Positions 9,577 through 53,512 of a stretch of DNA of 64,000 nucleotides are shown here, one piece after another (the stretch's first letter is position 1; the number at the start of each line of letters is the position of its first letter). Under the pieces are notes generated by a model. The model did not search any database and was not told the origin of the DNA. It saw only the letters and a program-made list of their open reading frames with translations. Made by a program: the position numbers and the translations under genes. Origin of the DNA: Amphibalanus amphitrite (lineage: Eukaryota > Arthropoda > Thecostraca > Balanomorpha > Balanidae); NCBI RefSeq assembly GCF_019059575.1, contig NW_024882784.1, positions 127,487-191,486 of the forward strand, in the 5' to 3' direction.

Positions 9577-12500
9577 TTAAAAGTATCGGAAGTCCGGTTG
9601 CGGCCGGAAGTGCACGCGGCGGCCGCTGCGGGTGTGCACCGGCGCAGTCGCGGACGGCTTGTCGTCCTTGGCCGGCGATGCGGAAGACGTTACTCCAGGT
9701 TTTGAAGTCCTCTTGCCGGACGGTCTTGTAGTCGTCGGCGTCTGTGTCGGCTCGTCGGGCGCCCCAGTGGCGAGGGGCCCGAGCGAGGTCGACGGTGACG
9801 GCTGCTGCTCCGGAGCCGTAGGCTCGGTACTGCTCGGACCAAGCGTGTCCTCAGGTGGCGGCATGTGTGCCGGTTTGAGTCTGTCGACGCTTACAGTGTC
9901 GTGGGCGCCAGTCGGCAGCTCCAACGTGAACACTTTAGGGCTGCGTCTGATGACTCGCATGGGGCCGCGGTACGGGGACTCCAGAGAGTGCCGCACGCGG
10001 TCAACGCGTACCCACACGTGTGTGCATGTCATGAGATCGGGTGGCACGTGCGTCGGTGGTGTGCGGGCGTGGTTCGAGCCCTGTGAGAGTGTGACGAAAT
10101 CGATTTCTGACATACGCTTTGCCAGTTCTTGGACGTACTTTGTCCCGACGGGAACCTTCTCGACGGCGCAGCGGGGAAACAGCACCTGCGCGCCTGTGAC
10201 GGCAGTGAATGCCGAAAAACCCGACTCTGCTGGCATGGCTCTCAAACCTAGCAAAACGACGGGTAGCGCGCGCAGCCACTCTTGCCTGCGCGCCCGGATG
10301 GCGGCTTTGAGCGTTCGGTGGACTCTTTCCACCATCCCATTGCACGTCGGATGATAAGCAGTGGTTCGGAGGCGATGGAAACCTATCATTGAAGACAAAT
10401 GCGCAAACAGTTCCGATTCGAATTGGGAACCGCGGTCCGTGACTACATGCAGTGGCACTCCGAACCGGGACACCCAAGTGTCGAGGAAAGCGGAGGCTAC
10501 ACTTTCCGCGGTGATCGAGACCAACGGCACGGCCTCGACCCAACGCGTGGCGCGATCGATGCATGTCAACAAATACCGAAATGGCGCGGTGAAGGGGTGC
10601 CCGTGGGGTACTGACGGGGGCAGCGGCCCGACTATGTCTATATGTACAGTTTCGAACCGCTGTGAGGGCACGTCAAACCGACCAGGCGAAGAACGAGTGT
10701 GCCTGTGCACCTTGGCTTCCTGGCATGCTTCACACTCCTTCACCCATCGCGCAATGTCACGGCGCATATTATGCCAGAAATAGCGAGAGCTGATGAGACG
10801 GGTGGTGCCTTTCCTACCCGGGTGTGACAGGCCGTGGAAACGATCAAACACGGCGCGCCTGCATGCCTCTGGTACGTACGGGCGTGGATGTGGTCCAGAG
10901 TTTTCACACAGGACTGTGATGTCACCAGACAGTGTTACTGGCTCCAATCGGGAGGTGTCCTGTGGATTTGAGCGCGATCCTGGACCTGACTCGGAATCCT
11001 GGTGCTCTGAATCGGCACTGCCGGCGTCTCTCTCCTTTTCCTGCTTCTGAGCCGCCGCGATAAAATGGAGGTCACATGCATCGAGGGACACTGCATTTAC
11101 CGGGCGACTGAGGCAGTCCGCCACCACGTTGTCACTGCCACGAATGTACGAGACCTCCGTGATGTATTCCGTGACGACACACCAGTGGCGCTGTTGGCGG
11201 TCAGACTTAGCCGTGTGCGGGCTGTGAAAAGCGCACACGAGTGGCTTGTGGTCTGTTCGCAGGGTAACGTGGCGGCCTTCGATCATGTCACGAAAATGGA
11301 GTGTGGCCAGATAAGCCGCGAGTAGCTCTCTGTCATACGCGGCGTACTTCTGTTGGGCCTGACTGAGCTTCCGTGAGAAGAAGCCAATGGGAACGGGTAC
11401 TCCGTCCACAATCTGATGGAGCGCGGCACCCACCGCGACTTGTGATGCGTCAGTGACGAGCTCGTACTGCTCGCAGTGTGGCACTGGGTGTGGCAGAGTG
11501 CAGGCGCCAGCCAGCGCCGCTTTACTGTCACTGAACGCCTGAGTCTGTTCCTCTGTCCACGTCAGTTCTTTGCTTTTTGGATTGAGTCGAATCAGTTCGG
11601 TCAGGTGGAACGTGACATCGGCGAATCGCGGAATCATACGCCGGTAGAAGCCGATGAGTCCCAGATAGCGACGCAGTGACTCTGAGTCATGCGGTAGAGG
11701 GAGGTCCAGAATCTCCTTCACTCTGGCCTTGGGAGGTGTGACACCTGTGCTGGTGACGTCATGACCGAGGAAAATGAGTGACTTCTTCATGAACTCGCAT
11801 TTCTCCAGTGAGATGCGAAGCTTGTGCTCAGCCAGCTTGCTGAACACGAGGCGCAAATCTTTCTCATGCTGCTCCTGGTTCTCGGAAAATACCAGGATAT
11901 CGTCAAGATAGACGAATACGCACGGCACGTCTCGGAAGATGCCGTCCATGACCCTCTGGAATGTGGCACCTGCGTTGCGAAGCCCCATTGGAATGAAGGC
12001 GTATTCGTACAAGCCGAAGGGCGTGGTGACGGCCGTCTTCTCCGAGTCAGCGGGGTTCATAGGCACCTGGTGATATGCACGGAGCAGATCGATTTTGCTG
12101 AACCACTGAGCGTTGTGGAGCTTGGTTGAGAGGCTTTGAATGTGCGGCAGTGGGTAGCGATCCGGTTTGGTTACGGCGTTGAGCGCGCGGTAATCACCGG
12201 TGACACGCCACTCACCAGGGGTACTCTTCGGAACCATGTGGATGGGTGAGGCTCACGGGGACCTAGACGGACGAATCACTCCTGTTTTGAGCAGCACATC
12301 GAGTGCTTGCTTTGCTGCGGTTAGTTTGTCGGGCGGCAGCTTGCGTGGGCTGGCGAACGTGGGTGGAGCGCTGCCGGTGTCGATGAAGTGAGTGGTTTTG
12401 ATTGGTGAGTCTGTGTAATCCGGCTGGTTAGGGCTGAGAACAGCGGGGTGATCCTCTAGGATGGGCCGCACTGCCTCAGGCACCTGAGCGAGATCATTTA

Positions 12501-14570
12501 TCACCAAATGAACAGACTCCCCGGTCGTCGGTACACCGGGAGCAGAGAGCAGAGTGGTGGAGTCGCGGAGAACTTGGGAACCACAATCGACAACCAACGA
12601 GTTGTGAGCGAGAAAATCGTTACCGAGTAGTGGCTCTGCCACTTCAGCCACTACAAATGTCCATGTGTAACTGCGTCTCAGTGTGGGGAGGACAATATCG
12701 AGAGTGGCCTCGCCATGCACGCGCAGTGGCTGCCCGCTGGCAGTCGTGATCGAAACAGCAGATGGCAGTGTAAAATTTTTACTTCACCGTTACCTGTGCA
12801 GATGAAAAAAGTTTTGTTTTTTACCAGTCAGTGATGAAAAAAATTGACCGATCTTAACATGCAATGATGATTTTTACACTAACAGGTGCTATGATGAAAA
12901 GAATGACAACGTGAATTACGTCACGGTGTAAATGGTGTGAACCATTATCCAGCTCACAATGATGGATGGCATAGAAACATCGTTATAAAAAACGTACATG
13001 GCGGCAACCATTTTCTGTGGGTGGAGGCGCAGGGGCTAAAATTTCATCGTATCAGTATGGACCTATGGTCATTATTCACAAGTTATGGGCAACAATCAGC
13101 ACCATCTTCTCTGATCAGAGAGGATAGTGCTCGAGTTGAAGGTGAAAAACTTCTTTACAATGTAAAATTAAAATAATTCTGAAAATAAAAATACCTACCA
13201 GGTTTCAGAGAGCTACCCAGCGACGCATTATCATTACGTTGCTTATATATATCCTGATCATTACCCTCTCTGAAAACGGAAGGCACGCGACGCGTTGTTT
13301 GCGCCGTAGTTTGTCACGCTGGCGCCAGAAAATGCGGCTACTAAATAATTGCGTTGCATTAAACCGAACCCGGCCCCCGACACCGTAAGAGGTGCAATTT
13401 CCCTCGAGACATTACCCAGCCTGCATGGCATCAAATCGGAAGAAACTTGCACCACACAGTTCAAAAATGATCGAGGCTGTCACATATGTATAGTATTTGC
13501 CATATCTTTCATCAAATCATGAGATAGCTTGCGTCCATGTTGCAGCCTGGACACCAGCCCGAGGATGAAATTTTTGTTCATTTTCGAAAGGCAATGTTTT
13601 TATATTAACAGCAATCTAAGAGTTTGTATGTATCTTATAACGAAGTCCAGTGTCTTATCTTCTAAAAAATGCATTACAGTCATAAAAATATTGACTAGAC
13701 TCCCTACAAGCATTCTCGACTGGTGACTAAAAATCGAAGAATTTTTCATCCTCGGACACTCTGTAAGAAAACAGCTATAATTTCCCTAATATTCAATATT
13801 TTTCGATTATATCTCCAGCAAACATGGAGAACGATCCATTTAACATGCTAATCCAAACAGCAGATGATTTGGAAACTTCATGAAGGCGTGAGAGATCCCC
13901 GCGGTTACCTGGAAAATTTCATCCTCAGCCTGGCCTTTTTAATGCTTTTTCATCCTAATTTCATCATTCAGTTGTAGAACTAGTTTAATGCAATTCTTCA
14001 GGGAATGTTTATACAAAATCAATAAATTAATTTAATTTTAATTTTTAGACATTATTTGATTGATAATATTGTATTATCGAGTGTATTTATCTGCACTTAC
14101 CTACACCTTTTTATTGTTCTGTTTCTTTTTTTAATCGAGGCAATCACGAAGCGCATGATACATACACTGTGCTGAGATATTTCCATGTGTCATTACTATC
14201 ATTGCTGATTGGAAAGGAAGGTGCGTATAATTTATCATGTATATTTTTTGTGGTTTTCATGATAGGTGCAGTTTTTAACCTTCTAACATTATTTTGGGAC
14301 ATTTTAACCGATTTGAATAAGGATTTGGTGCATTGGTGTTGAAAGATGAAAATTATGAGCCAGGATGAAAAATTAGCAGATTTCATTAACTGTGATTTTC
14401 CAGGCTAATACCGGAAAAATTTTACACTGGCAGATGGGTGGATTAGAGTTCCATTCACATAGGAGGGTGGAACCAGGGATACACCAGCGCCAGTATCCAC
14501 GATGAATTTCAGGGGCTGATCATTCACCTTGGCTGTGACCCTAAGGAGCGGCAGGCCGAGGGCTGCGTTT
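9577..14570 (-). pseudogene. pol: pol of the CsRn1-like element (protease, RT, RNase H, integrase), disrupted
   Basis: Pol is read in the -1 frame relative to gag. The aspartic protease motif DTGA is at 14486-14497, then a hAT element (12766-14429) plus its 8-bp duplication interrupts the protease. The frame resumes at 12757. A single in-frame TGA at 12250-12252 lies just upstream of the main reverse transcriptase frame (12237-9577). Downstream come the YLDD active site (about 11899-11910), an RNase H domain beginning near a TDAS motif, an HHCC zinc site, an integrase core with the D, D and E residues (HIDIVGP, VTDRGSQ and GMVERVH contexts) and a GPY/F-like tail near SPYRGP. The last part is low-complexity and Pro/Thr-rich. 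The copy cannot make intact Pol because of the insertion and the stop. Confidence 0.93.
12766..14429. mobile_element. Non-autonomous hAT element inside the retrotransposon protease
   Basis: Both ends carry the 15-bp inverted repeat CAGTGTAAAATTTTT. The 8-bp duplication GCAGATGG is present at 12758-12765 and 14430-14437. An 8-bp duplication and a CAGNG terminus are diagnostic of hAT. Short GATGAAA words are frequent near both ends and around 13560 and 13740, as expected for subterminal transposase sites. No hAT transposase frame is visible in the 1664 bp. Confidence 0.93.
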
Positions 14571-15435
14571 ACGGCCTGCTCCTCTCGTTTCCCGACTCTG
14601 AGGCTGCACGGGAGGGAGATGCAGCTCGTGAGGACGGCTGCATGGTCAGATCAGCAGCTTTGTCGGGCCAGTGACACCATGGCTTGCAAGTGCGTGCTCG
14701 GCTGCCGAAAAACAGGTGAGCACGGCATACTTTCGGCTTCTGGTCAGGGTGGAACGGCGTGAGACCGAGAGACGCCCTTGAATCACGAGCAGGGGAGTGT
14801 GTGGCGGCTCGGCTCTGCGGCTGAGTGGCCCTGTGGTACTTTGGGTGCTGCTGAGCCACAAAGAACGCCTGTGAGTCGGACTGTGGGTCCTGATCCTGAC
14901 AGTGAACCATGTTAGTAGCTGAGTTTTGCACAAGAGGCATCAGTTCGTCCGCGAGTTTGCCCAACTGCGACAATGAGAGCTCGCGCTGAGAAGCCAGGGC
15001 CGTTGCAATGCCTGTAGGTAGCGACTGGATAAATTTGTGCCGAACGAGATCGTCTCCGACACCAACCTTGTCGGCCACCTCTCTGAGCTCGCTTAGAAAG
15101 AGTGAGGGGCGGCCCGTCAGACGCGTTTTGCTGATCAGTTTCTCAAACATCTCTGGTTTTGTCTTTTCGTACATGTCAGTGACGGCTGTCTGTAGCTCAG
15201 AGAAATTTTTGTTGCTCAAGACAGCACGCGGAATGTGCGAGATGGTTTCCGGAGGCAGGGCAGAGAGAACGTGGTAGAATTTGGTCTGCGAGTTGGTGAT
15301 TTTGGCAATGTTAAATTGGGCGTCCATAATAGCAAACCAGCCGTCAACCGCGGTGTCCATAAAAACCGGCGGCTTGATCGACACATGATGGACCGGCTCG
15401 GCATGAGCGGGTTCCATCGTGCCCTCGTTCGTCAT
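14569..15435 (-). CDS. gag: Gag of the CsRn1-like element
   Basis: This 288-residue frame starts at the first ATG after a 285-bp leader and stops at TAA. It has a Gag capsid-like helical region (about residues 30-180) and, at about residues 237-254, the knuckle C-x2-H-x9-C-x3-C. That CHCC spacing differs from the usual retroviral CCHC and is characteristic of CsRn1-clade Gag. The tail is Ser/Arg-rich. The protease frame overlaps the gag end in the -1 frame, which implies a -1 frameshift to make Gag-Pol. Unlike pol, this frame is intact. Gag would coat the element RNA in cytoplasmic particles. Confidence 0.88.
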   Translation of the reverse strand: MTNEGTMEPAHAEPVHHVSIKPPVFMDTAVDGWFAIMDAQFNIAKITNSQTKFYHVLSALPPETISHIPRAVLSNKNFSELQTAVTDMYEKTKPEMFEKLISKTRLTGRPSLFLSELREVADKVGVGDDLVRHKFIQSLPTGIATALASQRELSLSQLGKLADELMPLVQNSATNMVHCQDQDPQSDSQAFFVAQQHPKYHRATQPQSRAATHSPARDSRASLGLTPFHPDQKPKVCRAHLFFGSRARTCKPWCHWPDKAADLTMQPSSRAASPSRAASESGNERSRP

Positions 15436-20795: not shown

Positions 20796-21830
20796 GCCGC
20801 GGTTACCGCGTGTAATGCAAGTAACAGGTGTCATGTCATGTCCTATCCCCAAAGGTGTCCATATGTAGAGACATGGCCGATTTCCTTTATCATTCATATT
20901 TACTTATCCATAAAGAAAATCTGACAAAATAAAATTTATTGTCAAAATCATCGAAAATCAATAAGAATCAAATAAGATAATGCTCGTGGAACAGCTGTTC
21001 GATCGATTCTGTCAGACAGACAGTTCGTGACCTAATTCCACCGTTTTTCTTCATCTCGTGGCATAAGCATGAGCCACTATAAACACAAAGCACTTCTTAT
21101 CCCTGAAATGAAAAAAAGAATAACTGTATACCTCCTACAGCACACACCTTCAAAACAATGTCTCTCCAGGCGAAGAAGGCAACGCTAACACTTAACAGTG
21201 AGGCAGATGCTCAATGCTTCACATCAGTCACCTATGTAGGCATGCAAAAGGATGAGAGGCAGTAGCTGCCAGTCCAAGTAAAACTCTTGTTTTAAATTAG
21301 GTAATGCGAGACACATAAAAACATAACATTAACATGCTGGCGAATAAACATCGTTTGCTAACTGCGTTGGCAAGAAGTGAGCGCAACGCAGCAAGCATTG
21401 CGAGCGCAATGAAGCGAGCAAGCAGCGCGCAATGAACTGACTAAGGGTTGGCCGACCCCGACACAAGCCTTTCAGACCGACATCGAGCCATTGCAAAATA
21501 ACACACGAGAAAACCAACCCGCACATATGCAGTCAGCGTCAAAGAAGCAAAGTTCAATAACATGAGCTGTTTCTAGGCGAACCTTGCGCCGTCACACGCC
21601 ACACGGCTCGCAAAGTACGTTCGTGTCATCGCACTGCTCCGTCACATCTTACAGGCCGTCCAGTATCCGGACCAAACACTGCTGATCCTTCTGCGGCACG
21701 AGCACGATCCCTGATCGGCGGGAAAGGCGCAGCTGCTCAGTCCCGGAATGAATCCCACTAGTCCCATCACCGGAGACGAGCACAATATCACGTCACAAGT
21801 GTTTTATGTAATGCTCTTCTTCATATATCT
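20796..21830. other. Insert replacing the C-terminal end of the broken Hsp70 copy
   Basis: The sequence expected for the last part of the Hsp70 C-terminus is absent. A 65-bp segment at 21083-21150 (ACAAAGCACTTCTTAT, then GAAATGAAAAAA, then ACCTCCTACA) recurs at 21867-21935, next to the point where Hsp70 homology ends. This suggests an insertion or duplication event. I recognise no gene. Confidence 0.5.
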
Positions 21831-21917
21831 TCATTCATCTTCATGGTATATTACATCAAATGTTAAATACAAAGCACTTCTTATTCCTGAAATGAAAAAA
21901 TGAATAGCTTTGCACCT

Positions 21918-24674
21918 CCTACACATACACATCTCGTTGACAGTGTCCACATCGTCTTCATCAGCGTTAAGATCAGCCTCCACGATAGTCTGCACCACCT
22001 GGCACAGATAGCTCTGCGCTCGTTCACGCAGAGGTGGCTTCTTCTTCTTGGGCTCGCTGGCCGATTTCTTCCCGGCCTTTCCGTACTTCTCGTCCAGCTG
22101 ACGCCGTAAATCCCGAGCTCGGGACCGGACTTCCTTGTCGGGCTCGTGGCAACATGAGCAAGAAGACCGATGAAACACCGGTGGCGAACCTCTTCACGCT
22201 CCTTTTTTCGACGATTTCGGTTCTCCCTCTAGAAGGTTCTCGATGGTAAGCAGCAGGTCGTTGCCCACCTTGTCTGACGAAGGCTTCTCGTCTTCGTCAG
22301 GGTCTTTGTGCTCCTCAGCTTGGTCGGATAGTTTGGAACTGGGACTGACTGAGATAGCTCGGACAGTTTGAGGGCGAGGACCACCGATCGTAGGAAGTGC
22401 GACACCACGCTCTCTCACCACGCTCCTTTTGATCCGCGCTGGTTGCCGCTCTGGCGTCCGCGGCCTCGGTCTTTTTCGTCATCAGTGGGGACGTCACTTG
22501 TGTCGTTTTTCGTCCCTTTTTCTCCTCGGACGGGTCGATGGTGAATCACTTCCGCTGCTCCGACTATCGTCTTCAGAGGAACTGTCGCTCTTGCGCCTTC
22601 TGTTTCTATTTCCTTTACGCTCAGCGTCCTTTTCACGCTTCTTTGTTTCGCGCTGTTTGTCACTTTTACGTCCGTTGGCACGGTCTTTACCTTGAGCTGT
22701 GGAGGCGTCACTTTTGCGTTTTTCGTCCTTTCTTTCGCTTCGACGAGTTCGCGAGGCGTGGCCCCCGCTGGTACGACTACCGTCTTCAGAGAAACTTCCA
22801 CTTTTCCGCCTTCTGTCTTTGCTTCGTTTGCGTCCAGCCTGTGGAGAAGTGTCACCTTTCCTTTCCGCAGAGCCTCCATTGAGCTCCCTACCGCCCTTTT
22901 CACTTTTTCCTCGGACTTCCGATCTCCCATCATCACGAGGACCGTCTCCCTCCAAACTGGCGTTGAACCGTTCCTCTTTGTCTTTTCCTTGGCGTCTTTC
23001 CCGTTCTTCTTTGTCTTTTTCTTGGCGTCTTTTCTCCTTCTCTTCCTCTGCTTCCGCCTCCATCCTTTCCGCATTCTCCTGCATCTTCTCCAGCTCTTCA
23101 GGTCCGAGGCGGTAAATGCAGTTGATCTTAATCTCTTTTGACGTTCCTGACTTAGAGTCTTTCGTGGATCCTTTCGATGTCTTTCCTGACTTCGAGTCTT
23201 TCGCGCATTCTTTCGCGGTTACTGTCATAATGCCATAGGCATCGACGTCGAAGACGATCTTGAGCGTCATCTCGCCGCGTTTTACGGGTTTGATGCCATC
23301 CAGCAGAAACTCGCCTAGGAGATGATTGCTGCGAGCGTTAGGATGGTCTCCCGCGTAGATGTAAACTTTTGCGGTGGTTTGATCGTCTTCTCCCAAGACG
23401 AAATCGTGCGCAACTCTGATGGGCACCTCACTGTTGCGTTTGATGAGTATCTGGAGGTGGTTCTCATCCTCTTGTACCCCTAGTGAGTATGGGATCACGT
23501 CAATCTGGCGATCCACACCGGAAACATCCTGTCCGGAGAGAATAGCCGCCTGGACTGTGGCGCCGAACGCCACTGCATTGATGCGAAGATTTAGCTTCTT
23601 GCCGTCAAAGAAATCTTTAAGAAGCTTGCGGACCTTCGGAATACGCGTCGAGCCACCGGCGAGGATAACTTCGTCGATGTCAGTTCTCTTCAGATTTGCA
23701 TCATCCAGAGCGCGCTGAACCGTATCCAGTGTTTTTCGGTAAAGATCTTCACAGAGTTCGTCAAAACAGGCCCGAGAAACCTTCCCTGCAAAATCGATCC
23801 GCTCAAACAGGGAGTTAAGTTTGATGTGAGCCCCCAAAGAGTTCGACAGAGTCTTCTTCGCCTCTTCACACGCCAACTTGAGTCTCTTCGTCGACATGGG
23901 GCTGTTGCGGGGATCTATCTTGTGCTGACTCTTAAACTCATTTGCGAAATAATTGACGAGTCGGTAATCGAAGTCATCGCCTCCAAAATGTGTATCGCCC
24001 GCCGTGGAAATCACTTGGAAGCCTTGATCTGTATACGCGAGAACGGAGACATCGAACGTGCCACCTCCCAAGTCGAAGATGAGTACCTTCTGCCCTTTCT
24101 TTAGCTTCCTGTCCAGGCCGTTTGCCAGCACGGCAGCAGTGGGCTCGTCAATGATGTCCATGACGTCCAGGCCGGCCATTTTTCCAGCTTTCTCGGTGGC
24201 CTGGCGCTGGGCATCAGTGAAGTGAGCCGGCACCGTCATGACAGCTTTGGTGACCGTTTTCTTGAGGTAGGCCTCGGCCGTCGACTTCATTTTAGTGAGC
24301 ATCATGGAGCTCATCTCCTCGAAGGTGAACAGCTTCGTCATTTCCATGTACTGCACCTCGACCTTCGGAATTCCTCGGTCTTTAAGCACTTTAAACGGCC
24401 ATCGCTTCATGTCCCTTCGCAGTTCCTCGTCGTCAAAGTCACGACCGATCATGCGCTTAGCATCGAAGACTGTGTTCTCCGGGTCTCTAGGCCACTGATT
24501 CTTGGCGACCTCTCCAGCAAGCCACTTCATTTCGTTGAACGTCACATAGCTGGGCGTCGTGCGGTTGAAGTGATCGTTAGGAATGATCTCCACCTTACCG
24601 TTCTGGAAAACTCCTACACATGAATATGCAGTGCCCAGGTCAATACCAATCACCGGTGCTTCTGAATCAGGCAT
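21918..24674 (-). pseudogene. Hsp70-type gene, degraded copy with intact ATPase core
   Basis: From the ATG at 24674 a 726-residue frame runs to 22494. Its nucleotide-binding domain keeps IGIDLGTAYSCVG (the second Thr of the usual GTT is Ala), FDAKRMIGR, the phosphate-2 loop [11 protein letters not shown] and GGSTRIPKV. Compared with the intact copy, two residues are missing before VAFGA. The substrate-binding sandwich and first lid helix follow, then two charged repeat units. Homology then changes frame near 22500 and returns near 22420. It stops at 22194 after an extra A in a run of A's, and continues to about 21918 before ending in the middle of the lid. The last lid helices and the C-terminal motif are gone. 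A shortened product from the 726-codon frame cannot be excluded. Confidence 0.88.
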
Positions 24675-25115
24675 GATGTTGCTGTTTTACACAATGCAGG
24701 CGTCAGGCGGAAGATGACGGTGATGCCTCTGAGACGTAGATGAAGAATAGTGAAACACTCGCACTAAAAACGATACATGTCGCGTCGTGGTGGCTGTTTG
24801 GCGCCACGACGAACGCTCGGGTCTTTGCTGAGGCTCAGCTACTCCAAAAGCTGATCGCACAGCTGTTCTTGATACTGCCGAGGATACTGCCGACCACAGT
24901 CAGGTCCGACTGTCAGCGTGGAGTGGTTACCCCACCCTGTGCAAACTTGACAGGCCTGCAGATAACCCTCGGCCTATCGAATGTACAAATAGTCTCGCTG
25001 ATTGCGATAGTCCAATCCACTCGGGCAGTGGGCACTCGCCTTGGCGCCACCACTTGTTTCAAACTTCACGATGCTTGATGTACACCGTTTACTCCTCCGT
25101 TACTCCTCCGTGATT
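24675..25115 (-). promoter_or_regulatory. Leader and promoter of the broken Hsp70 copy, inverted duplicate of 28545-28983
   Basis: The reverse complement aligns with the leader of the intact gene, including GTAAACGGTG(T/A)ACATC and the GGCGCCACCAC/GTGGTGGCG region. The TATA-like box of the intact copy is TTTAAAA here (about 25095), which suggests a weakened promoter. The plus-strand frame 24740-25078 is antisense to this leader and is not treated as a gene. Confidence 0.75.
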
Positions 25116-27238
25116 TTAAAGCGACTCTGATCACTAAAGCACCGCTAGTACCCGTCAGTCTGCACCGTTGTGATGAGTATTTTTCACAACTTAGAGCTTG
25201 GTCTTGCTGTTTGTTTAGTCCGTTGCCTCGCGTCGGTCGTCCTGATCAGCGGCCGGTGCAGAATGGCACACTCTGCATTGGTAATCGCAAGGCGCAGTCA
25301 CCCGCGGTACGGCGGCCGCTCTGAGTCACAACTCTCACCACCAGGGCTCATCAGCTACTGCGCGTCTCCGGCCGCCGCGCCGGCGCCAGCCCCGGCACGG
25401 GCGATACCAGCGGGCGCCGCGCCGGCCGGCAGTCGCACGGGTGATCCCAGCGACGGCTAGAAGGGGGCGGCGCGGTACACCACACTGTTCACAATTGTTC
25501 TTGTCTTGCTCAGAAACTTCCCAACTCACCCGACTGGATGTTCCTTTCTCCTTCCCCGAGTTTCTCACCTTCGGCCACTTGGATTTGGAAAATGGAAGCC
25601 TTCTAAAGCAGCTTTTTCGGCGTGTCTCGGTGTTCGGCAGATTTTTTACTTCTCTCGGCTTGTGCTGCCATTTCCTATTGTTCCGTTATGAGAATGGATA
25701 GCTTAGAAGAGGTGTCCAGTCACTCGTAGCTCTTTGTGATTCTTCTCAAGCTTTCGAATCAACCGTTCGGAACCCTTGATGATATTCCACTACTGGCGGC
25801 ACTCCTGCTGTTTCCTCACTTCTGGTGTCTCACTAACTCACTCCTGGTGTCTCACTAACTCACTCCTGCTGTCTCACTAACTCACATCGTCCACCGCTTG
25901 CCACAGGCTTCACTGCCCCACTGCCTAACCACAGGCACCATGCAGCTCGCCCCCGACGCTGCAGTAGTCCCTGATAGCACCATGTAGGTATGTGTTGATA
26001 AGATATCTTGATATGATGTGCTGTTTTAACATGACCGACTACTCGTCATAGAAAATTGTATTCTGTATTCTGTATTTTGTATTTCTCATCGCCGTCTACA
26101 GGTGATGAGAAATACAGAGAAATAGGTAGAATTGGACAGATTTGACCTTGCTCAGCCTCCCTGTGACGTCACAAGTCAAAATTGAGGTCTTCGATAATTC
26201 AGCTTGTACACATTGATGAGGTCTTTTGAATGCCGTTTGGATTTTTGTGGACCCGACTTTTGGTTCCCATTATGTTTTGAACCCGTTCCGCGGACCGGCG
26301 CGGCGGCTTGTGGGCTGTGCCAAGGTGACTATAAATAGTTTCGATAAGGTAACATAACAAGAGCGCTAGAATTGACTACCAGAATTGGATCCGAAGGTCA
26401 AATGGGTCACGTGACTGTCAAGTTCAGATGAACAACACAGAGTTTTGGGAGGGGCAAACCATAACAATTTAGTGGTTCTTTCCACGCACCGTACCTGAGC
26501 GTGATGTTAAAATTATGCCGTTTGGGAGGGGCAATTGCCGTATTTGCCCTCCCCTGGATCCGCCACTGCAGGCACGAACCGAACAGTTGTGTCGGCAGCA
26601 GTGACAGAGGATGCAACAGTTCCGGAGATACGACGGGGGCCCTTTGCCCCCCCCCCCCAGCCTGGACCTGGAACCGGTCAGACCTCAACAGGTCACGGGT
26701 TGTAAACAATCAATCACATTTGCAAGCCAAGATAGTCATGCTGACCATGGGGTACACGAGGCTTTGCACTCAATACCCCACGTTTCAAAAAAAAAATGTC
26801 GCAGCTCCCATGTCCAACACTGAATGCCAGGGAGCCTCCGGCTGGCAGATGAAACGTCCAGGGATGACCTCATACAGGCTACATCTCCCAGTATAATTTT
26901 CATAAGGGTCATGACTATCCATAGGTTAAGGTAGGCATCTATTCTATACTATTCTATAGGCCTATCAGATAATTTTTATTACGATATTTTTCTTTTAGCA
27001 GAAGGCATCATTGGAAACTTAGTTTAGATACACACGCATTTCATAAAAAAGCAGCTCAGCAGCGTTGTCATAAGGATTATCCAAAATCACTAAATTTAAC
27101 CCTTGTATCGATCTGCCTATTTTCCTACAAAATAAACGCACCAAAAATAGGCAAGTGGTAATACGAAACACGAGCAGCTAGAATGACATGGATACCTTGC
27201 TAAACCTGTACCTCCCCGCTCCCGAGGTTTGGAGAAGC

Positions 27239-27365
27239 GGTGGGTTCCCCCCAACATATCCCCACTCCAGATTCCTCAACATTTCCCCGCCGCTCGACAT
27301 CGGGGAAGTCCCGGCACAACACCGGACCATAGTGTCATCATACCGCCACACTGGGAGCCCAGATA
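27239..27365. repeat. Direct duplicate, copy 1 (copy 2 at 27805-27932)
   Basis: Both copies share AATCCCCACTCCAGAT-like sequence (ATATCCCC here), GGGGAAGTCCCGGCACA and ACCGGACCATAGTGTCATCA in the same order and spacing, with diverged bases between. Confidence 0.85.
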
Positions 27366-27804
27366 CAGCGGGGAAGTCTATTTTTGGCAGCCGGCTTAAG
27401 CTCACGTCTGAGACGCCGAAGCCTGCCGTGCAGGAGTCTAGAAAGGTCGGCCCTGAGACGTTATCAAGGAGGCTAGGTCTTTTTTTTTTTTTGCTTCATG
27501 TCAAATTAATGGGGGATAAGGCAAAACAAGTTTCGCCTTTCTATCCCTAAGCGTTCATGAGGCATCGCAAATATTCGCCAGGGGAGGCGAAAAACGCCCC
27601 CCCCCCCCCCCTTCTGGGCCAGCGAGGGTTAATGGTTAAGCTCAATACGTGTGCATGAAACCTGAAACCATAATAATTTTGAATGGCAGCATCTAGGGGC
27701 AAGCCGCAAGGTGCTCATGGATTTTGCAGATCGGCGTATCAGACAACAGTCGGGTCACCTCAAGCTTGCCCCCATTGGCGAAAATTCGTGGTGCCGCCAC
27801 TGCC

Positions 27805-27932
27805 CTATCCCCCCCCCCCGACGAATCCCCACTCCAGATGCCCCGACATTCCCCCGCGGCTCCAATGAGGGGAAGTCCCGGCACACCACCGGACCATAGT
27901 GTCATCATACCGCCACACTGGGACCCTGATAC
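27805..27932. repeat. Direct duplicate, copy 2
   Basis: It matches 27239-27365 in the same orientation; see that entry for the shared words. Confidence 0.85.
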
Positions 27933-28554
27933 CGCCCTGCCGCGTGACTCAGACGTCGCCGGGCCCCGACGCGAGGAAGCGGTGCTATCATGCAGGGCGC
28001 TATCAGGGGCACTGCAGTGTCCGCAGCGAGTTAGACGGATGCATTGGCAACACAGTACTGGCAGTGAAGCCTGGGTGTGAGCGTTGGATAAAGTGAGTGA
28101 GAGACCTGGATTGCTGCCAGTGGTGAAAGATCATTGAGTTTGCGAGTTTGTATAGTTATGAAAGGTTGAGAAGCGAGGTAAGAAAGGTTGAGAAGAATTA
28201 CGAAAAGCTGTAAAGAGCTAAGAGTGACTAGACAGCTCTTCTTAACCATCCTTAGAACTGAGAAATAGGAAAAGGCAACACAACCTGAGATAAGAACAAA
28301 ATCTGCCGAAAACCGAGACATGCGGAACACGAAGCTGCTTTAGAAGGGTTTATTTCTGCCAAATCCAAGTGACTGAAGGTGAGAAACTGTAAGAGCGAGA
28401 AAGAAACAATCGGTCAGGTGAGTTGAAAAGTTTCTGTGGCGAGACAAGAACCACTTTGAACACCGCGGCCCAACTCTGTGCGTGAATGGAAATACACTCA
28501 TGAAAACGGCGCTGACGGATGAGTGTTGGATGTATTTTAGCGGTCAGAGTCGTT

Positions 28555-28561
28555 TATAAAT
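28555..28561 (+). promoter_or_regulatory. TATA box candidate of the intact Hsp70 gene
   Basis: TATAAAT lies about 430 bp before the start codon, just inside the inverted homology shared with the other copy. I found no clean array of heat-shock elements upstream, so heat inducibility is not supported by the sequence. Confidence 0.5.
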
Positions 28562-28983
28562 CGCAAAAAGTAAACGGTGAACATCTAGTATCGTACAGTT
28601 TGAAACGAGTGGTGGCGCTAAGGCGAGTGCCCAGCCCGAGTGGATTGGACTATCGCAATCAGCAAGACTATTTGAACATACGATAGGCCGCTCGAGGGTT
28701 ATCTGCAAGCTAGTCAATTTTGCAGAGGGTGGGCTAACCACTGTGGACTGACACTCGCCCCCGTCGGCAGAATCTTCGCGAGGGTCAAGAAGAGCTGTGC
28801 TGCTTGCTTCTCTCGTAGCTGCAACCTCGTCATTGGTACAGACGTTCGTCGTGGCTCCCAGCAGTCTCCACACCGCTGCATTCTTCGTTCTTAGTGCAAC
28901 TGCTTCAGCATTCATCGTCTAAGTCTCAGTGGCGCCGCTGTCATCTTTCGCCTGACGCCTTCAGTGTGTAAAACAGCAACACC

Positions 28984-31900
28984 ATGCCTAAGTCAGCTGC
29001 ACTGGCGATTGGTATTGACCTGGGCACCACCTACTCATGTGTAGGGGTCTTTCAGAACGGCAAGGTGGAGATCATTGCGAACGACCAGGGCAGCCGGACG
29101 ACGCCGAGCTATGTCGCGTTCAGTGAAACCGAGTGGTTTGCTGGAGAGGTCGCCAAGAGTCAGTCACTTAGAAACCCGAAGAACACAGTCTTTGATGCTA
29201 AGCGCATGCTCGGTCGTGGCTTTCACGACGAGGAACTGCGAAGAGACATGAAGCGATGGCCGTTTAAAGTGATCGATGACCGTGGAATCCCGAAGATCGA
29301 GGTGCAGTACAAGAACAAGACGAAGTTGTTTACGCCCGTGGAGATCAGCTCCATGGTGCTCACTAAAATGAAGATGACGGCCGAGGCTTACCTTGGAAAA
29401 ACGGTCGCCAAAGCTGTCATCACGGTGCCGGCCTACTTCACGAACGCCCAGCGCCAGGCCACCAAGGACGCTGGCAAGATAGCGGGTCTGGACGTCATGC
29501 GCATCATCAACGAGCCCACTGCTGCCGTGCTGGCCTATGGTCTCGACAAGAAGCTGGACGAAGAGCAGAAGGTACTCATTTTCGACTTGGGAGGTGGCAC
29601 GTTCGATGTTTCCGTCCTCGCGTATGCAGATCAAGTCTTCCAAGTGATGGCCACAGCGGGTGATACACATCTTGGGGGCGAGGATTTCGATCATCGACTC
29701 GTCGAGCACTTCGCAAATGAGTTTAAGAGGCAACACAAGAAAGATCCCCGAACCAGCTCCCTAGCAATGAGGAGGCTAAAGGTCGCGTGTGAAGAAGCGA
29801 AGAGGACCCTGTCGAGCACCTCCGTAGCTCACGTGAATGTTGACTCACTGCTCGAGGGCATCGATTTTGCAGGAAAGGTTTCTCGAGCCCGTTTTGACGA
29901 ACTCTGTGGAGATCTTTTCCGAAAAACACTGGATACGGTTCAGAGCGCTCTGGATGATGCAAATCTGAAGAGAACTGACATCGACGAAGTTATCCTCGTC
30001 GGTGGCTCGACGCGCATTCCCAAGGTCCGCAAACTACTTCAGGATTTCTTTGACGGCAAGAAGCTGAACCTTCGCATCAATGCCGACGAGGCAGTGGCGT
30101 TCGGCGCCACGGTCCAGGCGGCCACTCTCTCCGGACAGGAGGTGCCCGGTGTGGATCTCCTGATCGATGTGATCCCCTACTCACTAGGCGTGCGGGAGGG
30201 TGAGAACAACTTCGCCAAGTTCATCGAACGCAACAGTCACGTGCCCATCAGAGTCGAGAAAGAGTTCGTCTTGGGACGAGACTACCAGACCGCGGCACAG
30301 GTTGATATCTACGAGGGTGAACATCCTAACGCGCGGAACAATCATCTACTGGGCGAGTTTCTTCTAGACGGCCTTCCGGCCATGAAACGTGGCGAAACGA
30401 AGCTCAAGATCGTCTACGACGTCGACGCTGACGGCATCATGACGGTCTCGGCAAAAGACACGATGTCAGGAAAGTCAAAAGAGATTCAGGTCAATTGCAT
30501 GAGCTACATCGGCCCGGAGGAACTGAAGAAGATGCAGGAGAATGCGGCAAGAATGGCGGCGGAAGCCAAGGCGGAGGAGGAAAGACGCCGGGTAGAGGAC
30601 GAAGAGGAACAGTTCAGCACCAGCCGGGAGGGAGACGGTCCTCGTGACGATGAAAGATCGGAAGCCCGAGGAAAAAGTGACAGGAGCAGTAGGGAGCTCG
30701 ATGGAGGCTTCATGGAAAGGAAAGGTGACACTTCTCCACAGGCTGGACGCAAACGAAGCAAAGACAGAAAGCGCAAGAGCGACAGCTCCTCTGCAGACGA
30801 CAGTGACAGCAGCGGAAGAGACGCATCACGAAACCGTCGCAGCGGAAAAAGGGGTGAAAAACGCCGAAGTGATGACTCAACACACGGAGACGAAGACGGA
30901 GGCCACGAACCTAAAAAAGACAAACGGCGAGAGACAAAGGAGCGGGAAAAGGATGCTGAGCGTAAAGGAAACAAGGACAGAAGGCGCAAGAGCGAAAGTT
31001 CCCCGGAAGGCGAAAGTGACAGCAGCGAAAGTGACGCTTCGCGAGACCGCAGAGGCGAAAAAAGGGGCGAAGAACGCAGAAGTGATGACTCCACAGACGA
31101 TGAAAAAGATCGAAGTCACGGACGTAAAAGTGACAAATGGCGAGAGACAAAGCAGCGGGAAAAGGATGCTGAGCGTAAAGGAAACAAGGGCAGAAGGCGC
31201 AAGAGCGAAAGTTTCCCGGAAGGCGAAAGTGACAGCAGCGAAAGTGACGCTCCGCAAGACCGCAGAGGCGAAAAAAGGGGCGAAGAACGCAAAAGTGATG
31301 ACTCCGCAGACGATGAAAAAGATCGAAGTCACGGACGTAAAAGTGACAAACAGCGAGTGACAAAGGAGCGAGAAAAGGACACTGAGCATAAAGGAAACAC
31401 AGATAGAAGGCGCAGAAGCGACAGTTCCTCGGAAGGCGAAAGTGACAGCAGCGAAAGTGACGCTTCGCGAGCCCGTCGCAGCGAAAAAAGGGACCAAAAG
31501 CGCAAAAGTGATGACTCCACAGACGATGAAAAAGACCGAAGCCACGGACGTAAAAGTGGCAAACAGCGAGAGACAAAGGAGCGGGAAAAAGACGCTAAGC
31601 GTAAAGGAAACAAGGACAGAAGGCGCACAAGCGAAAGTTCCTCGGATGGCGAAAGTGACAGCACCGAAAGTGACGCTTCGCGAGACCGCAGAGGCGGAAA
31701 AAGGGGCGAACAACGCACAAGTGATGACTCCACAGACGATGACAAAGACCGAAGCCACGGACGTAAAAGTGACAAACAGCGAAGGTCAAATGAGCGGGAA
31801 AAGGAAGCTGAGCGTAAAGGAAACAGAGACAGAAGGCGCAAAAGCGAAAGTTCTTCGGAAAGTGATAGTGATAGCAGCCGAAGTGACGCCTCGCGAACCC

Positions 31901-32832
31901 GTCGCAGCGAAAAGAGGGACGAAAAACGCAAAAGTGACGTCTCCACAGGCGAAGACCAGGACCGAGGCCAAGGACGCAAGAGTGACAAACAGCGCGGGAC
32001 AGAGGAACATGACGAGGGCAGGAGGCGTCGATCTCCTTCGCCACCTCACGATCGGCGGTCGCGACATTCCGACGCCAGTCCCAAACGGTCTGACCAATCT
32101 GAGGAGCACAAAGACTCTGACGAAGACGAGAAGCCTTCAACAGACAAGGTGGGCAACGACCTGCTGCTTACCATCGAGAACCTTCTAGAGGGAGAGCCGA
32201 ACTCCTCGAAGAAGGAGCGTCAGGAGGTTCGCCGCCGGTGTTTGGGTCTTCTCGCTCAAGTTGCCACAAACCCCAACAAGGAAATTCGGTCTCGAGCTCG
32301 GGATTTACGGCGTCAGCTGGACGAGAAGTACGGAAAGGCCGGGAAGAAATCGGTCAGCGAGCCCAAGGTGAAGAAGCCACCCCTGCGTGAACGAGCGCAG
32401 AGTTATCTATGCCAGGTGGTGCAGGCAGTGCTGGAGGCCGATCATAGCGCTGATGAAGACGAGGTGGACACTGTCAACGAGATGTGCATGGACATGATGA
32501 GCTGGCTGGATGATGATGATTCTATCCGGGATAAGGAGATCCTAAGGAGGATCAGAAGGCTGAAGACCAAATGTGACGACATCAGAGGCCTGTCTGTACC
32601 AATGGACGACATTGTTGATGAATCGGAAAGCGAAGACAAACGAAGCTCTGATGTTGAAGAAGATCGCGGAAAGACTTCTGGGAGGGATTCCCGAAAAGAC
32701 AAGCGTGACAAAGATACCAAAGACAAGGGAGACAAGGCTACCAAAGACAAGGGAGACAAGGCTACCAAAGACAAGGGAGACAAGAAAGAGTCTGATTATG
32801 GCGATCTTCCTCCTCTTGAAGAGGTGTTTTAG
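28984..32832 (+). CDS. Hsp70-type chaperone with repeat-split lid, 1282 residues, intronless
   Basis: Residues 1 to about 385 form a normal Hsp70 ATPase domain: [13 protein letters not shown] near residue 9, [20 protein letters not shown] near 200 and [10 protein letters not shown] near 338. Residues 390-540 form the peptide-binding sandwich and first lid helix, ending at [20 protein letters not shown]. The usual lid is then interrupted by about 500 residues. These hold six tandem 71-residue units rich in Ser-Asp/Glu and Arg-Lys (about 595-1016), then a lid-like segment (about 1055-1110). Canonical lid homology resumes at about 1134-1200 with SWLD and a CDDI helix. An 8-residue Lys/Asp repeat and the terminus PPLEEVF follow. 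A typical cytosolic Hsp70 is about 640 residues and ends EEVD. The start has a good context (CACCATG). Residues for ATP binding are present, so it is probably an active ATPase. Its client and partners are unknown; the RS-like region suggests nuclear or RNA-linked sites. A diverged copy lies head to head at 24674. Confidence 0.93.
30769..32030 (+). repeat. 213-bp coding tandem repeat, six units, in the Hsp70 lid insert
   Basis: A 213-bp (71-codon) unit recurs about six times; the AGAAGGCGCAAGAGCG-type word recurs near 30975, 31188, 31401, 31614 and 31824. Each unit encodes an acidic Ser patch ([14 protein letters not shown]), a basic patch ([14 protein letters not shown]), [19 protein letters not shown] and a Glu/Lys-rich spacer. 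The frame is maintained throughout. The degraded copy has about two units. Confidence 0.93.
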
Positions 32833-33178
32833 TGTGGTGACCAAGGCGTTTCGTTACCTGTGGCTGGTTGGAAAATCGTCAGTGCATGTTACTTGTGCAG
32901 TTTCACGCAACACAACTGACGTTGACTGACTGATGAACCTGAACGTCCCGAATGTTTGATTGTCCGGACTGCCAATTAAGAATTGAAAGTCGCGCTGGAT
33001 GACATACCTACTGTTACTGTTACTTGCGTTACACGTTATAATCGTTTGATGCTTAGTGCTTACCGGTGGATCTTGCGTTTACTTATCTTGCCGATCTTGC
33101 TTTGGGTACGTTTCATCAGGCATGTGGCGTCTAGCTCCGAAGCTTTTGTTGCTCTGTAAAGCTATCATCTATCTATGA

Positions 33179-33410
33179 CGACCATGTATTATAAACGTAG
33201 AGTGACGAGTCAGCAAAGTGATTTAGGTATTGTGATGCTATTAAACAGCAAAAGTATTCGGTTGCTAAGTGTGAAGTGACAAAAATAAATGTCGCTCATG
33301 TATGTTTAGAATGTGTTTGCGTTTAGTTATTTCGGCAGACCGACTCACGAGGTGTCATAACGTTTCAGTGCACAAAAAAACGTTAGATATCTACTATGTA
33401 GTGTCCAAGG
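33179..33410 (+). terminator. 3' flank of the intact Hsp70 gene with polyadenylation signal
   Basis: AATAAA is at 33284-33289, about 450 bp after the stop. The surrounding 230 bp are conserved in inverted orientation at 19440-19735, beside the broken copy, which supports this being part of the ancestral transcription unit. Confidence 0.6.
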
Positions 33411-33965
33411 CCTTAGAATGTCGTTCCATGGAACATGATAAAACACTGCTGGCGGTGTTTTGGTAGGACGGAGGCTGCTGTGGAGGTCAACGACTCAATA
33501 TTCCACTGTGCAGGGCAATACGTCCGAATGTGACAAGCGACAGAATATTCAAGCCTACGCTTTACAAATCAGTCAACTGTCAACTGTGCAATGGAATTCA
33601 TAAAAAGCTAATCCATATCCTACAAAATCCAATTAAATCGGTTTCTTTAATTTTATAAAACGTCTTTCTGGCTTACTGAAGGTACCGCATCTTAATACCA
33701 AACATCAACACCTTTGTTGAAACCTTTTTTATTTATCGATACCTAAGCAAGAAAAATAACTTGCGATAAAAAATGCACGGAAACGCTACGTGGCTCGAAA
33801 CCACGGGGCGGAAAAGTGAGCACACGGCGGAAGCGTGCGCATTCCTTATCGGCCGGACGCAGTTGATCGACGAGCAAGTGTCCATTGCACACCGTCTGAG
33901 CCAACAGATTGGTGCACGCCGATAGTCCCTTTTCCTCGTTGCAGCTGTTTGCACACTACACGATG
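33411..33965. other. Intergenic, nothing recognised
   Basis: I see no coding signal or transposon end between the Hsp70 3' flank and the repeat region that starts near 33966. Confidence 0.5.
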
Positions 33966-34873
33966 CAGGGGCGGATCCAAGGAAGGGCGGGCAGACATGG
34001 GCATTGGGCACGGATCCCAGACAACCAATCACGGAAATCGAGATGGCCATTAGATTGACTGTCTTCAAGAATGAAATTATGGTGGAAAACATGGCTAATA
34101 GAAGCCTCTCAAGGAGCCAACTGTTTTGCATTCCTTCAGAGTTAGGTAACAGTGCTGAGAAAATCCCTCAAGATCCATCTCGGATCTATGATTCGTGATC
34201 ATAGATCCGAGATGGATCTTGAGGGACTTTCTCAAAACTGTAAACTATCAAGGGAATGCAAACTAGTTGGTTCGTTGAGAGGCATCTATGGATGTAAGTC
34301 CACGCTTAAAAACAACTAATCTAGTGGTCATCTTGATTTTCGTGTCTGGTCGTTTGGGATCCGTGCCAATGCTTTGGGGGCTAATGCAAAGCCCCTAACC
34401 AAAAAAGATATGCCGCCGTAAGGAGCCACGAATTGGGACGCCGCAACACAAGTGGCGTCCCCATAACCGTATGGGAAGGAGTTGAACCATTACCAAACAC
34501 ATCAGTGATAGAGATATGAAGTAAGCTTCAATTTTCACTCGGCCCAATCTTATAAAATGCCGTACTATTCTATTTACGGTATTTGGTAATATTCACAGTG
34601 ACCCAGTGCTGACAAAGGGTTTTTTGAGTCAACGAAATGATTCTTTAGACCGTCAAATAACGATGGACTGAAATGCGTGAAAACCATTTTTCATTTGATC
34701 GTCGTTTTCTGCAGCTGTACTTCAGCCAGTGCTGCCATATCCGTTCCACGGCGTTTTTAAGATTGAGCCCGGGCGCCGCAATCGTATATTTTGCCACCCA
34801 TGGCAGATGAGGACCGTGCCGCCGCCATAACTTTCAGACCCCTAGCCGAAAAAAATGGATCCGCCCCCAGGGC
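33966..34873. mobile_element. Possible hAT-type element bounded by GGGGCGGATCCA
   Basis: The left end reads CAGGGGCGGATCCA and the right end contains TGGATCCGCCCC. These are inverted, but no 8-bp duplication is found, so the two ends may belong to different copies. A foldback of about 390 bp lies inside. Confidence 0.4.
33995..34385. repeat. Foldback palindrome, ~190-bp arms
   Basis: The arms are inverted copies meeting near 34195, with almost no spacer. The central 40 bp per side (AAGATCCATCTCGGATCTAT and its inverse) are identical. Similarity falls outward but continues to the GGCACGGATCCCA words near 34010 and 34370. Confidence 0.9.

Positions 34874-45404: not shown

Positions 45405-53512
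<8,108 letters not shown>

Follow-up and report, generated by a model that had tools for sequence, protein, structure and literature searches.

Can an Hsp70 chaperone remain functional when its lid is cut in two and the parts lie some 590 residues from each other? This question is raised by a gene of Amphibalanus amphitrite, found in a stretch of 64,000 nucleotides (RefSeq assembly GCF_019059575.1, contig NW_024882784.1, positions 127,487 to 191,486 of the forward strand; C1287:127487-191486 in our numbering of this genome) that is referred to here as the window. A single open frame of 1282 codons at 28984-32832 on the plus strand encodes a 1282-residue Hsp70, P0001. Judged from its sequence, this split-lid Hsp70 is a real and unusual variant, its layout being common to a duplicate in the window and to P0108, a relative from outside the genome. 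The anatomy of the gene, which is directly supported by the comparisons given in each line, is as follows.

28984..30138, + strand: ATPase domain (nucleotide-binding domain, NBD), residues 1-385; from PF00012, 12 kept residues and identity to the Hsp70s of the same genome
30139..30498, + strand: interdomain linker and beta part of the substrate-binding domain (SBD-beta), divergent, residues 386-505; from identity figures and alignment to the Hsp70s of the same genome
30499..30618, + strand: residues 506-545, helix A of the lid and, as aligned, the beginning of helix B; from alignment to the same Hsp70s and the end of PF00012
30619..32145, + strand: charged low-complexity linker, residues 546-1054 (509 residues); from composition
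30751..32006, + strand: 213-bp (71-codon) tandem repeat within the linker, 5.9 copies, five of them full units; from Tandem Repeats Finder
32146..32376, + strand: conserved block U1, residues 1055-1131 (77 residues); from similarity to P0108
32377..32586, + strand: U2, the resumed Hsp70 lid by homology (rest of helix B and helical bundle), residues 1132-1201
32587..32832, + strand: charged tail and terminus LPPLEEVF, with a 24-bp repeat inside the tail at 32695-32784 (Tandem Repeats Finder)

An intact ATPase domain and a divergent peptide-binding core

The Pfam profile PF00012 identified the protein as an Hsp70 with 666 bits, against a curated cut-off of 20.6. The match is one stretch, residues 8-551, and corresponds to positions 1-544 of the 599 in the profile. 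In the ATPase domain, all 12 named positions are kept (D10, T13, T37, K71, P147, R155, R171, N174, E175, D199, T204 and D206 in Hsc70 numbering), which we take to be the functionally important ones. Positions 151 (N to T) and 170 (L to M) are variable or mislabelled and were not counted, nor was "D393", which falls on L in the other Hsp70s of the genome too. In its ATPase domain, the protein shares 67-68% identity with the products of loci L001 and L003, which we take to be the Hsc70 and the inducible Hsp70 of this species. The SBD-beta is 36% identical to the same two proteins and 42-44% identical to the paralogues on contigs C386 and C87. By these figures, the peptide-binding core appears to have diverged while the ATPase stays intact.

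An EEVD C-terminus is typical of cytosolic Hsp70 members, and the termini of L001 and L003 are IEEVD and VEEVD. The window protein ends in EEVF, not EEVD. Its terminus LPPLEEVF (32806-32832) looks like the canonical (I/V)EEVD in which F stands in place of the final D, and we assume that binding of tetratricopeptide repeat (TPR) co-chaperones may be lost or altered. In the 1200 bp upstream of the gene, a search for heat-shock elements gave one site with one mismatch (0.27 expected) and no perfect site, using a script that missed the inducible genes of this genome that served as positive controls.

The lid breaks inside helix B and resumes after the linker

An earlier note, written from the letters alone, had described an Hsp70 core in one open frame whose lid is discontinuous and resumes some 590 residues on, and had proposed a search with PF00012 as a check. 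This search was run, and the description held. A continuous alpha-helical lid does not follow the SBD-beta: the profile ends at 544 of 599, and the lid-homologous segment restarts at residue 1132, ~587 residues past the break at ~545, with the motif SWLD at 1173. The break had been placed directly after the first lid helix, and this needs correction. The sequence before the break aligns on past helix A to the beginning of helix B, opposite AQREKISAKNALES, with few identities that are mostly of charge, and U2 picks up again within helix B, aligned to RNQLESYVFS. Since both alignments lie in helix B, we place the break inside that helix.

U2 alone was compared with four lids from the same genome, giving z values of 5.5, 17.1 (inducible Hsp70), 7.2 and 4.6; the shuffled sequences that scored as well numbered 0, 0, 0 and 1 of 300. 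A two-sequence profile of U2, made with P0108, was then aligned by hhalign to 61 Hsp70 lids (72 were found, and 11 without a W-L-D-like motif were dropped). This gave P 3.2e-7; none of 100 column shuffles did as well, and a reversed control scored 9.5 versus 40.1. The same profile matched 13 PDB sequences at E up to 10, of which the first 10 were all Hsp70; the eight under E 0.001 were likewise all Hsp70, and the best had E 8e-6. U2 on its own gave no Pfam match, and a single-sequence PDB search with the U1-U2 block found Hsp70 at E 0.71 only, ranked second of three matches. When residues 385-1210 were aligned by MAFFT with P0108 and 14 other Hsp70 proteins, the tryptophan and aspartate of U2 fell in invariant columns. 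Simple helix propensity, a weak measure, is compatible with helices in U1-U2. On these alignments, U2 is a genuine Hsp70 lid.

The intervening stretch had been taken for one repeat domain. This stands for the linker, residues 546-1054; residues 1055-1131, or U1, are a separate conserved block that is 36% identical to its counterpart in P0108, with 28 invariant columns. U1 had no confident match in Pfam, NCBIfam or PDB. We considered U1 as a duplicated second lid bundle: its features follow a similar order and hhalign gave an in-register alignment. Against the lid, however, 39 of 200 shuffles of the profile scored as well. Tested against U2, 10 of 100 shuffles were as good, so this origin is not supported. 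U1 may also resemble a BAG-like or TFIIS-N-like helical domain, for which the Pfam and PDB searches gave nothing confident. Scans of viral and prokaryote contigs with the U1-U2 alignment gave no relative, as expected for an animal gene.

The linker is charged, repetitive and open

The linker is 58% charged and 5% hydrophobic, with a net charge of +14. It is rich in R, S, D, E and K and consists mostly of the 213-bp repeat. A chain of this composition is probably disordered and floppy. The label "RS-like" given to it earlier has to be dropped, because it holds 27 SR/RS dipeptides in 509 residues compared to 33.9 expected from composition, which is no enrichment, and because the linker of P0108 is acidic instead. 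An SR/RS-domain protein was rejected on the same count.

The open frame had also been said to argue for selection. In favor of this, the linker has no stop over its 509 codons; simulated first-order sequences had a mean of 11.7 and not once 0 in 2000 runs. However, most of the linker is one 71-codon unit copied, and an alternative frame of the linker has just one stop. A ratio of nonsynonymous to synonymous substitution rates (dN/dS) below 1 in the linker and end block, together with the layout common to P0108, is better evidence of selection than the open frame.

A relative with the same end block and a different linker

The homologue search covered proteins between about 0.55 and 1.75 times as long as the query and listed 120 of 7991 matches. 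Separate searches with the tail and with the SBD-beta gave no match at all; since they missed even P0108, which should have scored in both, they are not taken as a sign of absence. Among the listed homologues P0108, an ENA-sourced protein of 1034 residues, has an Hsp70 ATPase, an interrupted SBD-beta, an acidic linker and a U1-U2 end like that of the window gene. U1 was found only in P0108 among the 120 homologues listed (E 1.6e-14; next 0.27). The U1-U2 block was found in P0108 at E 2.4e-28, with the next listed homologues at E 0.001 or worse and mostly on the U2 part. U2 is 38% identical between the two proteins, in an alignment that extends nine residues beyond U2. The net charge of the linker is -36 in P0108 versus +14 in the window gene. 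In a tree of 19 rows, the ATPase domain of P0108 and the window pair form one group with support of 100/99; one planned row without a start motif was omitted from this tree, its bootstrap is unsettled, and 10 of its 16 inner branches are open.

Because P0108 shares the block, has another linker and groups with the window pair by its ATPase domain, the conserved part is the separation together with the end block and not the chemistry of the linker. This argues against a common RS-type role in splicing factors and for a role of the linker as a spacer or tether. P0108 also carries an E/R/P/D-rich repeat insertion within the SBD-beta at residues ~418-560, which the window gene does not have.

An inverted duplicate and selection on the split-lid gene

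Comparison of positions 21000-33999 with themselves by blastn revealed an inverted duplication whose arms align in three main pieces and are 76-79% identical. It comprises the following features.

28182..32490, + strand: arm of the inverted duplication, with ~800 bp of 5' flank; the other arm is 21924-25755 (blastn self-comparison)
22494..24674, - strand: decaying head-to-head duplicate, P0122, a 726-codon frame; PF00012 at 8-565, same layout to within the linker
21924..22271, - strand: what is left of the duplicate's U1-U2 block, interrupted by a stop and frame shifts and running to just short of the SWLD position

The duplicate is 78% identical to the window gene in the NBD and 68% in the SBD-beta. 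It carries stops and frame shifts in the linker and end block, and its U1-U2 remnant is 74% identical over 115 of 159 residues, with one TGA. The core is open without introns in both copies. Sites that differ between the copies were polarized when one of five sequences (P0108 and four Hsp70s of the same genome) decided them, which assigned 21 changes to the intact gene and 72 to the decaying copy. The branch lengths in the tree were 0.046 for the window gene and 0.28 for the duplicate.

Between the duplicates, dN/dS (with 95% bootstrap intervals) was 0.35 in the ATPase (0.25-0.48; 382 codons), 0.27 in the SBD-beta (0.15-0.45; 120 codons), 0.43 in the linker (0.25-0.61; 155 of 509 codons) and 0.26 in the end block (0.10-0.53; 104 codons). 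All of these intervals lie below 1, which directly supports purifying selection between the duplicates. Since dN/dS is below 1, both the linker and the end block have probably been translated and under constraint for much of the history that the copies share.

These values bear on the possibility that the linker is spliced out, so that the mature protein would be an Hsp70 combining U1 with an almost normal lid. Low-complexity repeats could lie in an intron. However, the frame is open over 509 linker codons with a dN/dS of 0.43 whose interval is below 1, the core is intronless in both copies, and the database protein P0108, which may be a gene prediction, has a linker at the same place. We regard splicing of the linker as very improbable.

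It is improbable, to a lesser degree, that the gene is drifting to loss and that repeat expansion in a redundant Hsp70 duplicate produced its layout as a side effect. The adjoining copy is decaying, the linker units are fast-changing (pairwise dN/dS of 0.35-1.43 among five units), and the Hsp70 on contig C386 of the same genome also bears an R/S-rich tail, all of which fit such drift. It does not fit that the window copy changes little, given its short branch relative to the duplicate, or that the block is common to P0108, which branched off before the window copies separated.

The Hsp70 family of the genome

A profile search of the whole genome (807.6 Mb, 2644 contigs) gave 53 matches to PF00012, 23 of them above 500 bits. 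Among these 23 strong matches, 21 reach profile position 588-599, and only the two in the window end at 544. The lid is contiguous in all 17 of the 21 other strong loci that were examined (L001-L012 and L021-L025; the four outside this set are on C371, C420, C1558 and C418), with the motif WLE instead of WLD in two of the 17. The U1-U2 block had 14 matches in the genome: three at the window pair, six in ordinary Hsp70 lids at E ~1e-4, two in Hsp70 frames at E 1.6 and three elsewhere at E 0.3-5.7.

Two loci, L009 (C386:167500-175000, - strand) and L010 (C1412), encode an Hsp70 paralogue in which an R/S/G-rich tail of ~450 residues comes after a normal lid. The tail has 44 SR/RS pairs compared to 35 expected and ends TVDDQVD, and the two contig copies are very similar. 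The 1065-residue protein on C386 is like P0001 in joining an Hsp70 core to a charged R/S-rich extension of that length; unlike in the window gene, the lid is contiguous, the extension comes after it, and SR/RS pairs exceed expectation. At L011 (C87:325000-331000, - strand), a 710-codon Hsp70 frame has a contiguous lid, an SBD-beta 44% identical to that of P0001, and G in place of R at the Hsc70 R171 position.

That the locus is an assembly or chance artefact, with a U2 that is merely lid-like, would agree with its single occurrence in the assembly and with the lack of a Pfam match to U2 alone. The profile and shuffle tests, together with the end block in P0108 and, as a remnant, in the duplicate, leave this explanation close to refuted.

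Proposed working of the split-lid Hsp70

We tentatively favor a reading, to which we give slightly less than an even chance, in which the gene encodes a functional, lineage-specific Hsp70 of cytosolic or nuclear type whose outer lid bundle sits on a long, flexible, charged leash, with U1 as a new block; the disorder, the leash-like behavior, the clients and the location are what we infer. ATP binding and hydrolysis would drive opening and closing as in other Hsp70s, as the intact ATPase suggests. Helix A and part of helix B would remain on the peptide-binding core, and the bundle that completes the lid would dock only as a tethered module, making client clamping weaker or conditional. Large or assembled clients could be held by such a chaperone, and U1-U2 could bind a partner without leaving the chaperone. 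With its bulk, the linker of 509 residues may add excluded volume around a bound client, as has been proposed for Hsp110 (entropic pulling). A further possibility, which we hold more tentatively, is that the gene represents a new Hsp70 subfamily with U1-U2 on a disordered leash, in which ATP control is kept, lid closure is uncoupled from the core, and the sequence and charge of the leash are free to vary between species.

Several observations weigh against a functional tethered-lid chaperone. Between the duplicates, gap length is divisible by three in only 1 of 5 linker gaps and 1 of 3 end-block gaps, compared to 3 of 3 in the core; the non-triplet gaps fit later decay of the duplicate, but they also show a linker that tolerates length change. 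The linker dN/dS is computed over 155 aligned repeat codons, whose units may be mispaired. P0108 is the one relative outside this genome among the 120 listed of 7991 matches, and it has I at the T37 position and E at the D206 position. The window locus occurs once in the assembly, whereas at least 7 other strong Hsp70 loci are found on two contigs with near-equal scores, so no allele backs the gene. Finally, the SBD-beta is divergent and in P0108 is also interrupted by the repeat insertion, so peptide binding may be lost in this family.

This last point leads to a scaffold or regulatory pseudo-chaperone, whose ATPase would cycle with J-proteins and exchange factors without clamping clients, while the linker and U1-U2 would bind RNA, chromatin or a partner. 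The SBD-beta identity of 36% to the other Hsp70s of the genome, while the ATPase is at 67-68%, suggests such a protein, as does the retention of U1-U2 in P0108 beside an SBD-beta with a repeat insertion. We nevertheless consider it rather unlikely, because the SBD-beta is constrained (dN/dS 0.27, 0.15-0.45) and because a true lid bundle need not be retained if nothing is clamped.

Comparison with known systems

Like the canonical Hsp70 and Hsc70 (HSPA1, HSPA8), the window protein has the ATPase with the 12 residues, an SBD-beta, helix A, a lid bundle and an EEV- end. Unlike them, its lid is cut in helix B by ~590 residues, and it has U1, a charged tail, an EEVF terminus and an SBD-beta at 36% identity. 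In the usual view, a continuous helix B couples the Hsp70 lid mechanically to the remainder of the protein. A natural Hsp70 with a cut helix B and its bundle on a leash of ~590 residues, apparently selected, would be a ready-made test of which lid parts require rigid coupling. Beside Hsp110, it would also be a second and apparently independent example of a lid with added mass that is probably disordered.

The earlier note knew of no described Hsp70 with this layout. A literature search, judged from titles and abstract openings, did not find the split-lid layout either; the claim is narrowed by Hsp110 and Grp170, which have acidic insertions in the SBD-beta and lid (PMC7911927). A second paper describes loop extensions in the SBD-beta and lid, possibly unfolded, as a hallmark of Hsp110, with the lid extension at the C-terminal end of the lid (PMC12305717). 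Hsp110 lid extensions and entropic pulling offer a precedent (PMC7911927, PMC12305717). The likeness to Hsp110/Grp170 described there is a lid insertion in P0001 and an SBD-beta insertion in P0108 only. Unlike in Hsp110, the insertion in the window gene lies inside helix B, the linker is repetitive and net positive, and the U1 block is added. The string TEDW, from the Hsp110 motif TEDWYLEE named in PMC7911927, is absent from the window protein, so the comparison is an analogy. No match named Hsp110 was among the best 60 of 162 PDB matches, and the 19-row tree held no Hsp110 sequence. The resemblance to the Hsp110 lid extension looks like convergence.

Other features of the window

The window also contains two frames with domain matches and two tandem repeats.

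9577-12237, - strand: retrotransposon polyprotein with reverse transcriptase, RNase H and integrase (domain matches)
14569-15435, - strand: 288-residue frame with DUF7041, upstream of the polyprotein frame on the same strand; possibly the gag-like part of the retrotransposon
114-1175: 75-bp tandem repeat, 14.2 copies, 95% matches (Tandem Repeats Finder)
46893-47476: 32-bp tandem repeat, 18 copies, overlapping minus-strand frames of 290 and 286 codons

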